A stretch of DNA of 33,670 nucleotides from a bacterium (GTDB lineage Bacteria > CG2-30-53-67), in the NCBI GenBank assembly GCA_919901565.1, contig CAKKPE010000030.1:24398-58067 (forward strand), read 5' to 3'. Both the position numbers and the translations under genes were made by a program. The number at the start of each line of letters is the position of its first letter. Position 1 is the stretch's first letter. The notes beneath the pieces are model-generated. The model was not told where the DNA came from and did not search any database. It worked only from the letters and a program-made list of their open reading frames with translations. Below, one piece after another: positions 4,484-10,115 of this stretch.

Positions 4484-4696
4484 TTACGCAAACATCAACC
4501 GGTGTCCTTTGGGATCCGGTACAGGGTCCCCAAATTCTTTTGCAGTGTCAATCCACAATTGAATAGCTTCCTTTGCGCTGACTAAAGCTTCATCATAAGT
4601 CTGTCCATGTGCAGAACATCCGGGTAATTCGGGAACATCAGCTATATAAACTTTGTCCTCTTCACTCCAGTAAATTATAATTTCGTACTTATACAT
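4484..4696 (-). CDS. HicB-like antitoxin-type protein (orphan)
   Basis: A 70-residue protein of the HicB/UPF0150 fold. It opens with KYEIIIYWSEEDKVYIADVPELPGCSAHG, the hallmark alternating strand segment with VPELPGC, followed by the helix YDEALVSAKEAIQLWIDTAKE. Family members neutralise the HicA mRNA interferase or act as solitary proteins. No HicA-like gene is visible on either side and there is no C-terminal DNA-binding domain. It lies 53 bases downstream of brnA on the same strand, so it may share the brnTA transcript. The ATG is preceded by ggaagg. Confidence 0.8.
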   Translation of the reverse strand: MYKYEIIIYWSEEDKVYIADVPELPGCSAHGQTYDEALVSAKEAIQLWIDTAKEFGDPVPDPKGHRLMFA

Positions 4697-4749: not shown

Positions 4750-4974
4750 TCAAGTCACCTTTTCAAGACGCTCTGCAACCCAGATCTTAATAATGGATTG
4801 CCGAGGCACACCCAAGCGTTTTGCTTCTCTGTCCAACAACTGGATCATCCATAAAGGGAAATCAACATTCACCCGTTTCTGCTCGTGCTCAGGCCTTCTC
4901 GCCTTTGACACATCCAGATGTTTGGAAATATCCTCGCCTTTATCAAATTTTTCATCAAACTCTTTGGCTTTCAT
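4750..4974 (-). CDS. brnA: BrnA-like antitoxin
   Basis: A 74-residue antitoxin of the BrnA family (CopG/ribbon-helix-helix type C-terminus) that binds the BrnT ribonuclease and represses its own promoter. The longer frame extends to 5070, but the ATG at 4974 (MKAKEFDEKFD) fits: it overlaps the end of brnT by 20 bases, and BrnA proteins begin this way (a FDxKFDxGEDIxxxLD segment). The C-terminal part, KRVNVDFPLWMIQLLDREA followed by a basic helix, is the DNA-binding half. Confidence 0.85.
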   Translation of the reverse strand: MKAKEFDEKFDKGEDISKHLDVSKARRPEHEQKRVNVDFPLWMIQLLDREAKRLGVPRQSIIKIWVAERLEKVT

Positions 4975-5224
4975 AGATATCAACCTCCTCTTTCCTCGAA
5001 CGTCGTACCGAAATAATCCTTGTCCTACCGGCCCGATAGGTAATAACCCCTGACCAATGCTTTCCCGCAATTTTTCCGATTACCAGTAATCTTGGTTCAT
5101 CACTGGTTCTTACAGGGATCTCAATAAAATCCGGGTCATCCCACAGCACCTGGGCTTCGTAGAAATCAATCCCATGTTTTATCTTGTTGGCGTCACCTTT
5201 CCTGGCGTCAAATTCAAACTCCAT
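4955..5224 (-). CDS. brnT: BrnT-like ribonuclease toxin
   Basis: An 89-residue toxin of the BrnT family (RelE-like fold). It shows the typical opening FEFDARKGDANKIKHGIDFYEA, then VLWDDPDFIEI, the central strand EPRLLVIGKIAGKHWSGVITYR and RIISVRRSRKEEVDIYE near the end. BrnT is a ribonuclease that halts translation when free of BrnA. Here the toxin precedes and overlaps its antitoxin, which is the usual BrnTA order. The ATG lies only about 9 bases from the predicted -10 box, so the message may be nearly leaderless. Confidence 0.88.
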   Translation of the reverse strand: MEFEFDARKGDANKIKHGIDFYEAQVLWDDPDFIEIPVRTSDEPRLLVIGKIAGKHWSGVITYRAGRTRIISVRRSRKEEVDIYESQRV

Positions 5225-5390: not shown

Positions 5391-5484
5391 GCCAAATTAT
5401 TATTTAAACAAAACCACGGTGCAAAATATGCCTGAAATCAATTGCCCGCCGATCAATTGCGCCTCAACCTCTAAAATCTATACC

Positions 5485-6462
5485 ATGCGGCCTCCACAAC
5501 CTCAAAAGCCCAGGCTCCTCGACCAGATGCGCGAGGCCCTGCGTTCGCGCCATTACAGCCGCCGGACCGAGCAGACCTATTGCCTTTGGGTCAGGCGGTT
5601 CATATTTTTTCACAAGCTGCGTCATCCCTCCGAGATGGCCGAACCCGAGATCAACGCATTTCTCACCCATCTCGCCGTCCGAGAAAAGGTCAGCGCCTCC
5701 ACCCAGAACCAGGCCTTAAGCGCTCTGCTCTTTTTGTACCGACATGTTTTAGGGCGTGAAATCGGCGAACTGGGGGAGGTCATCCGGGCGCGTCGGCCTC
5801 ATCATATACCCGTGGTCATGACACGCGATGAGGTGAGAGCCGTCCTCGCCCACCTGACAGGTGACAAGTGGCTTATGGCCTCGCTGATGTACGGCGCGGG
5901 TCTCCGGCTCATGGAATGCCTGCGGTTGCGGGTTCAGGATATCGATTTCGCCCGAAACGAGATCACCGTCCGCGACGGCAAAGGCGCCAAGGATCGTATG
6001 ACGATGCTCCCAGAATCGCTCAAGAAACCGCTTCAAGACCATTTGCGCAAGGTTAAGGCAACCCAGGAGCGGGACCTGGCCGAAGGCTGGGGCCGCGTTC
6101 AGTTGCCCCACGCCCTGGACCGCAAATATCCCAACGCTCCAGCAGACTGGCGCTGGCAGTGGGTATTCCCCCAGGAAAACCGGTGGAGAAACCACCGGAC
6201 CCGTGAAGAGGGACGGCATCACACGGACGAATCACTGATTCAAAAAGCCGTAAAAGATGCCGTCACAAAAGCGGGATTGACCAAGCGAGCCACGTGCCAT
6301 ACTTTTCGGCATTCGTTTGCAACCCACCTCTTGGAAGGCGGTTATGATATTCGGACCGTTCAGGAGCTTCTGGGCCATAACGACGTGAAGACGACCATGA
6401 TTTACACCCATGTCCTCAACCGTGGACCATCTGGGGTTCGCAGTCCTGTCGACGGGCTTTGA
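5485..6462 (+). CDS. intI: Integron integrase IntI
   Basis: A tyrosine recombinase of the integron type, 325 residues from the ATG at 5485 ([14 protein letters not shown]), matching the family's 320-340. In-frame starts at 5419 (GTG) and 5428 (ATG) would add 19-22 residues; none has a clear ribosome binding site. The N-terminal SAM-like domain begins [22 protein letters not shown]. Catalytic residues are present: Arg in [20 protein letters not shown] (the HxxR box), [10 protein letters not shown], and the Tyr of MIYTHV. The insert [21 protein letters not shown] is the extra helix found only in IntI and needed for folded attC binding. It recombines attI with attC single strands. It looks intact and probably functional. 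It is transcribed divergently from brnTA. Confidence 0.95.
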
Positions 6463-6638
6463 AATGGACTTAGAGGATTTTTATGCTGATCCATATAAGA
6501 CGCCATGATAACAAATCCCAATCGACGCAAGTGGTTGAGCATACAGGCATTATCGCAGCAGCATTCGCTGTTTCAACGGTGTGTTATATGGATCAGAAAC
6601 CGGTGTTCCGCATACTATGCGGATCAATCTAATTATTG
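6463..6638 (+). other. Probable attI region and attC-like inverted repeat
   Basis: This 3' flank of intI must contain the attI site, because the first cassette starts at 6639 directly after a G (G^TTAGTTG, G at 6638). A perfect palindrome, CCGCATACTATGCGG (6608-6622), lies 16 bases before the crossover. Further left, GATCCATATAA (from 6489) is perfectly complementary to TTATATGGATC ending near 6598, and the match continues inward with one mismatch. The right arm reads GTTATAT, close to the attC R' core, while the left arm ends in AAG rather than AAC. It could be a decayed attC or part of attI. Confidence 0.45.
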
Positions 6639-7393
6639 TTAGTTGTCTCAAACCATGACCGATTTTCGCGCACTGTTCATACAGTTCCAGGATCACCTGG
6701 CCCCGAGGCTTGATGTCTACGAGCAGGCGCTCTACCTCTATATCCTGCGCCACACGATTGCGGTGGGCGAAACCGAAGCAACCATAGGATTTAAGTCCGC
6801 GCGAAAGAAAATGGCCTTTGGCGTGGGCACCGCAGGCACGCCGCCGTCCGAAGGCACGATCTACGAAAAGCTCAAAAGTCTCGAAACAAAAGGGTGCATC
6901 AAGGTCTTGAGTAGCGAGCGCACTGGCACGCGCCTGAGGCTGATACCACCGCACGAGATTCCTGGCGTCATTCCCGTTGCCGTACCGGAGGCTGCGCTGA
7001 CTTTGGACCAAATGGACTTCTTTGAGATCCCAGAGAACCGAACGCTAATTCTTGAGCGCGAGGGCCGCCGGTGTTTCTACTGTCTCGCCGGCCTCAATGC
7101 CGAAAACCACGTCATCGAGCACGTGATTTCGAGGCCGAACGGCGACAACTCTTATCGTAATGTGGTGGCATCGTGTCGCCAGTGCAACAACCGCAAGAGC
7201 GCTGAAACCGCCGAGGACTTCCTGCGCACGTTGTATCGAGAAGGTCTGCTGTCGTCTGAAGATTTCAAAGGCCGCCTCTCGCAACTCGATCGATTGCGCG
7301 TGGGTGACCTCCGGCCCACTCTCAAATGAGACAACTAACCACCGCATCCACGCCGACGCGCGCAAGAGCAGCGCGCGCGGGTGATGCGGAACG
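6639..7393 (+). mobile_element. Integron cassette 1 (HNH nuclease)
   Basis: A 755-base cassette running from TTAGTTGTCTCA to the G of the next GTTAGAC. Its left border (GTTAGTTGTCTCA, 6638-6650) is the exact reverse complement of the 13 bases TGAGACAACTAAC at 7327-7339, which form the R'' end of its attC. This is what a circularised cassette predicts, so borders are firm to the base. It contains one gene, whose stop codon TGA is itself part of the complementary stretch. Confidence 0.85.
6655..7329 (+). CDS. HNH endonuclease with N-terminal helix-turn-helix-like domain
   Basis: About 224 residues from the ATG at 6655 (MTDFRALFIQF); a TTG twelve bases upstream is less likely. The first 110 or so residues resemble a winged helix: a helical opening (VYEQALYLYILRHT) and SEGTIYEKLKSLETKGCIKVLS followed by a strand wing. 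The C-terminal half is an HNH nuclease: CFYC, then ENHVIEHVISRPNGDNSYRNVVASCRQCNNRKS, giving zinc-binding CxxC pairs, the HNH histidine and Asn/His metal ligands. It sits in integron cassette 1 and has no obvious ribosome binding site, so it may depend on a promoter in the attI region or in intI. HNH proteins of this type occur in defence and mobile contexts; the target here is unknown. Confidence 0.85.
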   Translation: MTDFRALFIQFQDHLAPRLDVYEQALYLYILRHTIAVGETEATIGFKSARKKMAFGVGTAGTPPSEGTIYEKLKSLETKGCIKVLSSERTGTRLRLIPPHEIPGVIPVAVPEAALTLDQMDFFEIPENRTLILEREGRRCFYCLAGLNAENHVIEHVISRPNGDNSYRNVVASCRQCNNRKSAETAEDFLRTLYREGLLSSEDFKGRLSQLDRLRVGDLRPTLK

Positions 7394-7399
7394 TTAGAC
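7333..7399 (+). other. attC site of cassette 1
   Basis: A 67-base attC: R'' AACTAAC (7333-7339) and R' GTTAGAC (7393-7399, a perfect GTTRRRY core). The inner arms are CCGCATC (7342-7348) and GATGCGG, perfectly complementary, with a G/C-rich centre (cgcgcgcaagagcagcgcgcg) that folds as the terminal stem. Crossover falls between G7393 and T7394. Confidence 0.85.
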
Positions 7400-7447
7400 C
7401 GACCCAAATCACATGGTCATTCGTTCCAACCGAAAAAAGGAGAAGAC

Positions 7448-8305
7448 ATGACGCAGACAGTCGACGTCAAAGCGGCCAAAGAGCGAGAGCTCGCCGGATG
7501 GACGGCAACGGCGGCGGGGTGGAACAAGCACCATGCGCTCCTTGAACGGTTCAGCGCGCCCGTTTCTGACAAGCTCATCGAGAAGGCGGGCATCCAGCCC
7601 GGCATGCGCGTCCTCGACATCGCGTGCGGCACAGGGCAACCTGCGATCAGCGTGGCGGAGCGCGTCGGAACGCAAGGTTCCGTCCTCGCGACCGACTTCG
7701 TGGAGCCTGTGATTGTCTACGCGCGGATGAAGGCGAAAGAGCGCGGGCTCACAAACATCGAGTTCCGCTGCCTCGACGGGGAGGCGCTCGACGTACCGGC
7801 GAACAGTTTCGACGCCGTGACGATGCGCTGGGGCATCATGTTCATGCCGAGCCCCGTCGAGTCGATGAAAGGGGCGCACGCGGCGCTCCGGCGGGGCAGC
7901 CGCATCGCCCTCACAGCCTGGGCGAGCCCACAGCAGAACCCGTTCGTGATGATCGCATTGGGGGTCATCCGCAACCACTTGGACATCCCCACGCCGCCCC
8001 CCGGCACGCCCGGGATCTTCGCATTCGCCGACCAAGCGCGGTTGCGGTCGACCATCGAGGCGGGTGGCTTCGGCGATGTTCAGATTGAGCCGTTCGATTT
8101 CGTGGTTGGCGAGTTCACGTCCGGGGAGGATTACTGGACGTTCATCCGTGAGATCGGCGCTCCGATTGCCCGACTGTACGCGCAGCTCTCGTCCGACGAT
8201 CAGCGTGTAGTCGACCGTGAGGTTCACGCGGAGGCGGAGCGGAGTCGCTCCGGTGACAAGGTCGTGGTGCGTGGGACGACCTGGATCGCCTCGGGACGCA
8301 AGTAG
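7448..8305 (+). CDS. Class I SAM-dependent methyltransferase (UbiE-like)
   Basis: A 285-residue methyltransferase. Motif I is MRVLDIACGTGQPA (about residues 55-68), followed by ATDFVEP (motif II), the FRCLDGEALDVP segment, FDAVTMRWGIMFM (motif IV region) and RIALTAWASPQQNPF. The family resembles UbiE/small-molecule methyltransferases; no DNA-methylase NPPY-type motif is visible. A strong site (AAAGGAGAAG) precedes the ATG, so this cassette gene can be translated independently. It is the only gene of integron cassette 2. GC is higher than in neighbouring genes, consistent with separate origin. Substrate unknown. Confidence 0.88.
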   Translation: MTQTVDVKAAKERELAGWTATAAGWNKHHALLERFSAPVSDKLIEKAGIQPGMRVLDIACGTGQPAISVAERVGTQGSVLATDFVEPVIVYARMKAKERGLTNIEFRCLDGEALDVPANSFDAVTMRWGIMFMPSPVESMKGAHAALRRGSRIALTAWASPQQNPFVMIALGVIRNHLDIPTPPPGTPGIFAFADQARLRSTIEAGGFGDVQIEPFDFVVGEFTSGEDYWTFIREIGAPIARLYAQLSSDDQRVVDREVHAEAERSRSGDKVVVRGTTWIASGRK

Positions 8306-8343
8306 CTCGCGGATGCCGACCTTTGTGAGGCTTGGTGGTGGCG

Positions 8344-8360
8344 GTCTAACAACGGCTTGC
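8344..8360 (+). other. Truncated attC of cassette 2
   Basis: GTCTAAC (perfect R'' core RYYYAAC) followed by AACGGCTTGC, the usual L'' arm of attC sites. The matching L' and R' halves (expected GCAAGCCGTT and GTTRRRY) are absent; the sequence instead runs into a 14-base direct repeat. The site cannot form a complete hairpin. Confidence 0.75.
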
Positions 8361-8368
8361 AGAGTGAG

Positions 8369-8480
8369 GGCTTGGGGGGTCAAGTAGGCTTGGGGGGTCA
8401 GGTCTTGCGGCTTGCATGCTATCATCAGGCGGCTCCTCCAGAAGGGAAAGGGGATAAGTCAAATCGCAAGACCTGGCCCC
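8369..8480. repeat. REP-like inverted-repeat insertion
   Basis: GGCTTGGGGGGTCA occurs twice (8369-8382 and 8387-8400). The second copy runs into GGGGTCAGGTCTTGC (8394-8408), which is complementary, with one G/T difference, to GCAAGACCTGGCCCC at 8466-8480. The 57 bases between contain no gene. The pattern is that of REP elements linked to Y1-type (RAYT) transposases, but no transposase is here. It interrupts the cassette 2 attC and reaches into the 5' end of the next gene. Confidence 0.65.
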
Positions 8481-9299
8481 CATGACTGGCCCCAAGACGA
8501 CATCGACTGGACAAATGCCTATGCAAATGAGGTGTTGACAACGTTTCGTGGCCGTTTCGAGAGCGCGTCCGATCGGTTCAAAACTTGGCAGCCGCTTCTT
8601 GACCGCTTCTCTTCAGCCATCGAGGACGTAAAGGCCAATTCTCGTTCGCACTTTCGCGCAGTCGATGAAACACATAACGAGCTATGTATCGCTGACGCTC
8701 TCCTTGAAAACCGTGACCCGTTGTTCACTTGCTTGGAATATGAACCTGCGTTGCCGGGTTGCGCCAAGTCCATTGATTTTCGTGCAACAACAGATGCGGG
8801 CGTTACAGTTTATGTTGATGTCAAAACCATCAAGCCGTTGGCCAAAGATCGTTGGGAGCAATTCGAGCGAGCCCACGCCGAGGGTTGGTTTCCTTCAAAT
8901 GTCTCTGTCATCCTTTCGAAGGAATGGCTTGGCGGGGAACTCTGGCACAACATGTTTGCGGTCCGCGGCCGCATGCTCGAATATTCGCTAGAGCTGGAGC
9001 AGAAGATCGCGGAAGGCAATCTTTCTGGGAATGGATCGCTATTTGTTCTTGCCCTCTGCGGCGAAGGATTCCACTGGCACGAAGACGAGTTGGAAGATTT
9101 TGTCAGCTATTACTACTCAGGCGCTCACAGAGGCGACGACGCATTTGGCAATGCAGAAGCCCGGTACGTCCACGAAAAGAACATCGCTATCGCCAAGACT
9201 ATTTCCCGCTTTGCGTGCATGCGTCGGCCGCAAGGAGATATTTTCCCAAAGCGTCTGAACTGGAATATTCAACCACCGCGTCACCCGCATTTCGCATGA
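8412..9299 (+). CDS. PD-(D/E)XK-like nuclease-type protein, 5' end disturbed
   Basis: Unrecognised protein of up to 295 residues. A segment resembling the PD-(D/E)XK nuclease core is visible: SIDFRATTDAGVTVYVDVKTIKP, i.e. an acidic residue, a short turn, then DxK, preceded by an acidic helix (ETHNELCIADAL). The only in-frame start at the 5' end is a TTG inside the repeat element (8412); a GTG at 8532 is the next candidate and neither has a good ribosome binding site. Residues 1-22 read through repeat sequence, so the native start was probably lost when the element inserted. It is the gene of integron cassette 3. Function inferred only from this motif. Confidence 0.6.
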   Translation: MHAIIRRLLQKGKGISQIARPGPHDWPQDDIDWTNAYANEVLTTFRGRFESASDRFKTWQPLLDRFSSAIEDVKANSRSHFRAVDETHNELCIADALLENRDPLFTCLEYEPALPGCAKSIDFRATTDAGVTVYVDVKTIKPLAKDRWEQFERAHAEGWFPSNVSVILSKEWLGGELWHNMFAVRGRMLEYSLELEQKIAEGNLSGNGSLFVLALCGEGFHWHEDELEDFVSYYYSGAHRGDDAFGNAEARYVHEKNIAIAKTISRFACMRRPQGDIFPKRLNWNIQPPRHPHFA

Positions 9300-9310
9300 A
9301 AACCATGCGG

Positions 9311-9376
9311 CATAACACTACGTTCGAGGGGACGCTCCGCCTATCGGCGGCGCGCCCCTCAACTCGGCGTTCGGCA
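9311..9376 (+). other. attC site of cassette 3 (array end)
   Basis: A 66-base attC with R'' GCATAAC and R' GTTCGGC (9370-9376). Inner arms GAGGGG and CCCCTC pair, and the loop region (ctccgcctatcggcggcg) folds into a perfect stem. R' departs from the GTTRRRY consensus at the fourth base (C instead of a purine). No further cassette is seen downstream, so this is the array's end. Confidence 0.75.
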
Positions 9377-9641
9377 GCAGCGTAGGTGACTTGGGGGCGT
9401 TGTTTCTTACGTTGCAAAATATTGGATAGGCAAAATATTATAGAGAGGAAAGGCGATGGACCATGCAATATTAATGGTCTTAAAATTGTAACGACATGAT
9501 CTCTATAAATCCCTCCTCACCTCCCTTTGCCAAAGGGAGGAATTTCCCCCTCTTTGGAAAAGAGGGGCGAGGGGAGATTTTACAATCCATATCAATTCTA
9601 TTACGAGACCCTTAATATATCTGATTTGGAGAGAAAAACAT
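9377..9641. repeat. Post-integron gap with two strong hairpins
   Basis: No gene is visible. GCAAAATATT occurs twice about 16 bases apart near 9414-9440. A perfect 10-1-10 hairpin, CCTCCCTTTG facing CAAAGGGAGG (9520-9540), is followed by a second, CCCCTCTTT facing AAAGAGGGG (about 9547-9567). These belong to the same palindrome family as those at 2120 and 32284. Confidence 0.65.
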
Positions 9642-10115
9642 ATGATCGTCGATGAGCTGCGGCACTGGAGATCTTATAACATGGGTCCGGACTGGAATAA
9701 AGCCTTTGATTTTCTGATATCCCTGACACCCGATATTGAAGAAGGGGAGTACCCTTTGCAGGGGAAGGAAATCTTCGCACGAATTATGAGTTATGAAACC
9801 CGCGGCCCCGAATCGGCCGTGCTCGAGGCACACCGGAAATATGTGGATATTCAAACCGTGCTTCTTGGCCGGGAGAGGATCGAGTGGTTCCCTGTCCATG
9901 GACTTGAGGTCCATACGCCGTACGATGAATCAAAGGACGCTGAATTTTTCAGCCGCCCTCATCCCGGGCCGGGCCGGTTGGACCTGTGCCGCGGCATGTT
10001 TGCCGCCTTTTTCCCCCAGGACGCCCATATGCCTTGCCTGATCATCGGGGATATGCCTGAACGGGTCAAGAAGGTGGTGGTCAAGATCAAGGCGGAAATT
10101 CTGAACCCAGGATGA
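9642..10115 (+). CDS. YhcH/YjgK/YiaL family protein
   Basis: A 157-residue cupin-fold protein of the YhcH/YjgK/YiaL (DUF386) family, related to EbgC and proposed to act on sugar or sialic-acid metabolites. Family signatures are EAHRKYVDIQTVLLGRE (about residues 65-81) and FFPQDAHMPCLIIGD (126-140), with metal-binding His and Glu. Length is normal. A ggagag site precedes the ATG. No sugar operon surrounds it, so its substrate is open. Confidence 0.88.
   Translation: MIVDELRHWRSYNMGPDWNKAFDFLISLTPDIEEGEYPLQGKEIFARIMSYETRGPESAVLEAHRKYVDIQTVLLGRERIEWFPVHGLEVHTPYDESKDAEFFSRPHPGPGRLDLCRGMFAAFFPQDAHMPCLIIGDMPERVKKVVVKIKAEILNPG

Follow-up and report, generated by a model that had tools for sequence, protein, structure and literature searches.

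Three co-oriented genes in a chromosomal integron, encoding an HNH protein, a methyltransferase and a protein with a D...DxK nuclease-like core, raise the question of whether they form a defence array together with an adjacent BrnTA toxin-antitoxin pair, as the original prediction proposed. The window analysed here, the whole stretch of 33,670 nucleotides (G000:C30:24398-58067), belongs to a 2.96 Mb assembly of 160 contigs and contains both the integron and the toxin-antitoxin pair.

The integron integrase gene intI (5419-6462, +) encodes a tyrosine integrase of the integron type, scoring 488.8 bits against TIGR02249 (cut-off 265), and its syntenic counterpart in a sister species of the same genus is 81.6% identical. 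The array starts past the 3' end of intI, which reads towards attI, and the cassettes are co-directional with the integrase gene, an arrangement described for Treponema (PMC3607928). The reverse-orientation integrons of Treponema denticola (PMC3607928) share both features with the window but belong to another lineage, and the window array is small, with three cassettes. The attI region (6486-6596) contains an imperfect 28-nt inverted repeat that ends in the core GGTGT/GTTATAT (~6582-6588); the region adjoins intI, and the core GGTGTGTTATAT is common to the window and the sister species, with different cassettes following in each. Between this core and cassette 1 lies a 57-bp segment (6582-6638) with a hairpin CCGCATACTATGCGG, which may be part of attI or a relic of an earlier cassette. 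The integron anatomy and the cassette boundaries are plainly visible in the DNA: complementary R''/R' sites with a bottom-strand attC hairpin are complete for cassette 1 and at the right end of cassette 3, and cassette 2 has half an attC only. Boundaries were checked directly, as our custom attC scanner proved overly stringent, overlooking the majority of established sites, those of the window included. An Rfam scan of the array returned sub-threshold chance matches only.

The BrnT toxin and CopG-type antitoxin genes (4750-5224, -) are recognizable by a BrnT profile match (PF04365, E 1.1e-21, 77 bits) and a CopG/RHH partner, which at 25.5 bits scores slightly below the cut-off of 28. The pair lies on the opposite side of intI from the cassettes, and the sister species (locus L072, G001) shares the gene order thiC-BrnTA-intI, with 84% DNA identity over 1690 nt. 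Since this order is conserved, sequence comparison identifies BrnTA as a fixed chromosomal neighbour of intI and not as cassette cargo, which corrects the original placing of the pair directly beside the cassettes. The window also contains a lone HicB-like antitoxin gene (4484-4696, -), which the sister locus lacks; thiC lies nearer to BrnTA there. In a relative (G004, locus L073 8179-9125), a HigBA-like toxin-antitoxin pair was noticed by eye on the opposite strand downstream of that relative's own intI.

Behind the shared attI core, the sister species carries a 2017-bp cassette (L072, G001:C20, 107-2124) encoding a restriction enzyme of the EcoRV family (PF09233, 8.8e-118) and a D12-class adenine-N6 DNA methyltransferase (PF02086, 1.9e-50). 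An attC is located at L072 107-161, and the cassette is closed by the attC CATAACAAGCGC...GCTTGTCGTTAGGC. Because the sister integron holds this EcoRV-type pair at the same attI, restriction genes demonstrably occupy this site, as judged from the profile assignments of their products. The pair lies outside the window and in one sister array only, and it provides the strongest support for a slot that carries defence genes. Judged by its predicted products, the window resembles this type II restriction-modification arrangement in platform, attI and DNA-cutting cargo, but differs in lacking a cognate DNA methylase, as none is encoded in cassette 1 and the neighbouring methyltransferase is UbiE-like.

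Cassette 1 (6639-7393, +; 755 bp) occupies the array position closest to attI. Its boundaries are exact, with GTTAGTTGTCTCA (6638-6650) perfectly complementing TGAGACAACTAAC (7327-7339) over 13 nt, and its attC (7327-7400, +) forms a bottom-strand fold with z = -10.9 in the circular form. The cassette encodes a protein of 224 amino acids (6655-7329, +), for which ATG 6655 is the likely start in preference to TTG 6643 because a relative at locus L058 aligns methionine to methionine. Consistent with the original description of an HNH nuclease with a winged-helix-like domain, the C-terminal part matches PF01844 and PF14279 above cut-off (HNH, E 5.7e-7; HNH_5, E 2e-6), and AlphaFold2 gives the N-terminal ~100 residues a winged-helix fold at moderate confidence (pLDDT of 65-88 in most blocks, 55 in one). 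Foldseek searches with this N-terminal model retrieved winged-helix proteins, among them PadR, the ORC winged helix and CodY, with no match below E 0.001. The HNH part was modelled at low confidence (pLDDT 35-58), and its HNH and zinc residues are all intact, with H156, N169, N178 and C140/143/174/177 invariant across four intact full-length proteins. HNH domains are also known from homing, repair and transposon-encoded proteins.

PADLOC matched the array proteins to no family beyond their HNH or methyltransferase domains. The cassette 1 protein resembles Septu PtuB and the retron-associated HNH proteins (TIGR02646) over ~50 residues of HNH similarity, but it has an N-terminal winged helix and is accompanied by neither a PtuA-type ATPase nor a retron. 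Septu (PtuA/PtuB) was rejected on the grounds that these ~50 residues cover little of the 212-position PtuB model and that the array contains no ATPase. IscB and Cas9 HNH domains give the best HNH-domain sequence similarity (3e-9, with plasmid matches as well), but this assignment was likewise discarded, as the 224-residue protein has no RuvC domain and aligns only through residues 132-196 (numbered from TTG 6643) with 36 bits, where the cut-off is 175.

Few relatives turned up for the HNH gene. A sample of 386 genomes from across the domain yielded matches to the HNH half only, and a pattern search with the N-terminal half in 85,000 genomes found one relative, in an Acidobacteria MAG (locus L044), which is 58% identical to the cassette 1 protein over its full length. 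A profile built from these two proteins and run on 347 Acidobacteriota genomes identified full-length relatives in G386 (the same MAG), G544, G706 and, more distantly, G630, as well as two frameshifted copies in G671; the remaining matches covered mainly the HNH part. Clear relatives are therefore confined to ~5 of the 347 genomes, a sporadic distribution. The full-length relatives at 65% and 27% identity are integron cassettes of two Acidobacteriota genomes, and their attC sites are unrelated. The 65%-identical gene of G544 (L058) is preceded by a GTTAGGC boundary and followed by an attC (9613-9731). In G630 (L062), the 27%-identical protein has the same two-domain layout, and its gene (9133-9852) is flanked by attC sites at 8992-9111 and 9849-9968 in an array with seven similar attC sites and its own intI (6110-7123), which is 57% identical to that of the window. 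Within the class containing G544 and G630, only these two copies were found in 93 genomes, both of them cassettes. With the G544 and G630 cassettes, the gene recurs in independent integron arrays. The relatives at 57-58% identity (G386 and G706) both lie outside arrays: that of G386 is located between valS and an amidase gene with no array, and that of G706 has one internal in-frame TAG. A DUF6414 gene (L058 7873-8802) directly precedes the G544 cassette and has similar attC-like sequence behind it, and the frameshifted G671 copies (L060 8896-9536 and L061 9127-9745) adjoin attC-like sequence, for example GTCTAACACGCGCTGCACCCG in L061.

Because the HNH gene is sporadic and two further genomes carry full-length relatives as integron cassettes, its distribution marks it as something other than a housekeeping gene. 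The original prediction named as refuting a lack of nuclease fold in the 8412 protein together with HNH homologs occurring only as housekeeping genes outside mobile contexts; the second half of this outcome is contradicted, and the outcome as a whole did not arise. The association of the gene with integrons is based on three genomes.

We consider it somewhat better than even (probability about 0.55) that the window contains a chromosomal integron slot with changing contents, in which cassette 1 provides a standalone restriction-like nuclease that would most likely counter phages or other DNA entering the cell, and in which the three genes are independent of one another. The chromosomal integron would keep a small cargo slot whose contents differ between species. 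We infer that the cassette 1 product is a self-contained nuclease whose N-terminal winged helix would recognise DNA and whose C-terminal zinc-ribbon HNH domain would cut it, with phage or other incoming DNA as its most likely target in a defence role. A standalone restriction factor is a credible assignment for the gene, whose function is probably antiviral or anti-plasmid. Screens in Vibrio found anti-phage activity in about one in ten integron cassettes and in ~20% of the cassettes for which no function had been predicted (PMC12409362, PMC12444791), rates that make the prior favourable for a defence role of the candidate in cassette 1. Published anti-phage cassettes include the Vibrio chromosomal-integron 'biobanks', the V. 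parahaemolyticus defence libraries and phage-resistance cassettes of mobile integrons (PMC12409362, PMC12444791). The locus described here resembles them in its small one- or two-gene cassettes, nuclease-like products, first position in the array and sporadic occurrence, but it differs in its reverse-orientation integron and poorly sampled phylum, and the HNH gene of the window is a candidate only. Unlike the published anti-phage cassettes, the winged-helix-HNH family is assigned to no known system by PADLOC.

The HNH protein could instead be mobile but serve no defence function, acting as a nuclease in DNA processing, repair or regulation, or as a toxin-like stabiliser of the array. We regard this as a real but distinctly lesser chance. 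It accords with the lack of a PADLOC defence family, with the resemblance of the winged helix to transcription-factor folds such as PadR and CodY, with the two relatives outside arrays and with the lack of a known function for the majority of integron cassettes (PMC12409362). Against it stand the conservation of the nuclease residues in every intact full-length copy, the sporadic, horizontally moving distribution and the restriction-modification cargo that the sister species holds at this site.

With cassette 1 as the candidate defence gene, the other two cassettes require separate explanations. Cassette 2 (7394-8385, +) begins at 7394 with GTTAGACCG, which complements CGGTCTAAC (~8343-8351), and the right half of its attC is absent. 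It encodes a UbiE-like class I SAM-dependent methyltransferase (7448-8305, +) of the UbiE/Methyltransf_31 type (PF01209, 2.2e-18; PF13847, 2.5e-17). The closest solved relatives in the PDB are small-molecule or peptide methyltransferases, full-length relatives at 33-34% identity were identified on Ensifer replicons, and the sequence shows no DPPY-type DNA-methylase motif. By every test made, the protein classifies as a small-molecule methyltransferase and not as a DNA methylase, in agreement with the original assessment. A PADLOC match to mad2 of the MADS system was rejected as a generic domain match covering only positions 277-401 of 492. The best reading is that the cassette 2 gene is a metabolic passenger unrelated to its neighbours.

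The junction between cassettes 2 and 3 is occupied by a 102-bp dispersed repeat (8386-8487) with a 22-nt inverted repeat (86%), which takes the place of the right half of attC2 and of the left end of cassette 3, where a GTTATGC start would be expected. The repeat has three further matches in the genome, at 100% identity (G000:C17:15301-15402), at 95% (C117:25196-25294) and as an incomplete copy where contig C17 ends; in locus coordinates, these copies of 86-100% identity are L010 1501-1602 and 2937-3024 and L011 1501-1599. As one copy lies at a contig end, the genome probably contains more. The repeat, which has no match in Rfam, is possibly a REP- or MITE-like element. A tandem head unit GGCTTGGGGGGTCAGGTCTTGCGGCTTGCA was seen as well, and a transposase-like open reading frame (ISL3-like by eye) between two repeat copies (L010 1702-2442) is possibly related to its spread. 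Insertion of the repeat into attC2, or recombination with it, would have removed the start of cassette 3.

The remainder of the cassette 3 gene (8496-9299, +) is a frame of 267 codons after the repeat that is open throughout, and it is followed by the cassette's attC (~9304-9382, +; bottom-strand fold z = -3.8), which ends the array. The frame contains IDFRATTDAGVTVYVDVK, an IDF...VDVK motif in hydrophobic context typical of PD-(D/E)XK nucleases (D at 8775-8777, DVK at 8817-8825). Shuffled sequences contain the pattern in 2.2% of cases, and among 109 open reading frames of at least 200 amino acids it was found in one other, a Pfam-confirmed PD-(D/E)XK nuclease; on these grounds, the nuclease label is plausible. 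Pfam, PADLOC and the PDB provided no relatives, and none were found in the genome contigs, viral contigs, plasmids, phages, the 386 diverse genomes or the 347 Acidobacteriota genomes. One match at locus L046 (E 0.003) was dismissed as chance, as it overlaps a diaminopimelate decarboxylase-like gene and fails direct comparison. AlphaFold2 reached a pLDDT of 41 for the protein, modelled as a single sequence without relatives. The D...DxK core described in the original prediction is thus present, but the start at TTG 8412 lies inside the dispersed repeat, and a complete gene from this codon was rejected as the repeat would encode its first ~26-27 residues. Downstream of the repeat, the frame has no good start codon or ribosome-binding site, and the gene is probably 5'-truncated with its natural start lost, which would make cassette 3 a former PD-(D/E)XK-type nuclease-like gene, probably decaying. 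The open frame and intact motif would also suit an active nuclease expressed from TTG 8412 as a repeat fusion or from GTG 8532; this appears unlikely, given that no convincing start or ribosome-binding site follows the repeat, that the left cassette boundary is missing and that no relatives indicate a natural start. As a caution, what looks like an open frame behind a broken attC site may belong to a cassette that has been damaged.

Decay could extend to the whole array, with all cassettes being silent or decaying passengers of no present use to the host. The repeat that damages cassette 3, the broken attC2, the in-frame stop in the G706 copy and the frameshifts in G671 are in line with this explanation, but we consider it quite improbable, as the HNH and methyltransferase frames are intact with the codon-position composition of real genes and cassette 1 is the one nearest to attI. 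A single cooperating system of two nucleases and a protective methylase, suggested by the adjacency and shared orientation of the genes and by the two nuclease-type proteins flanking the methyltransferase, is very improbable, as the methyltransferase is of the small-molecule type, the other two genes do not travel with the HNH gene's relatives, cassette 3 lacks its 5' end, and the differing attC types and base composition (GC3 of 0.68, 0.83 and 0.56) point to separate origins.

Of the proposed defence array, the nuclease-bearing integron holds up, and the coordinated defence set is unsupported: nothing joins the three genes into one system, and they offer a single plausible defence gene instead of a functioning set of three. 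More tentatively, and less likely than not, the winged-helix-HNH proteins may represent a new family of restriction factors, single-gene and methylase-free, that spread between phyla as an integron cassette, with the integron of this phylum as a dedicated swappable restriction slot, filled by the winged-helix-HNH gene in the window and by the EcoRV-type pair in the sister species. Integrons were shown to be stores of anti-phage genes in 2025, mainly in Vibrio and for mobile integrons. The locus described here points to the same anti-phage use for a reverse-orientation integron in a phylum that has been poorly sampled, and the winged-helix-HNH proteins offer one specific, testable family that recurs in cassettes of Acidobacteriota.
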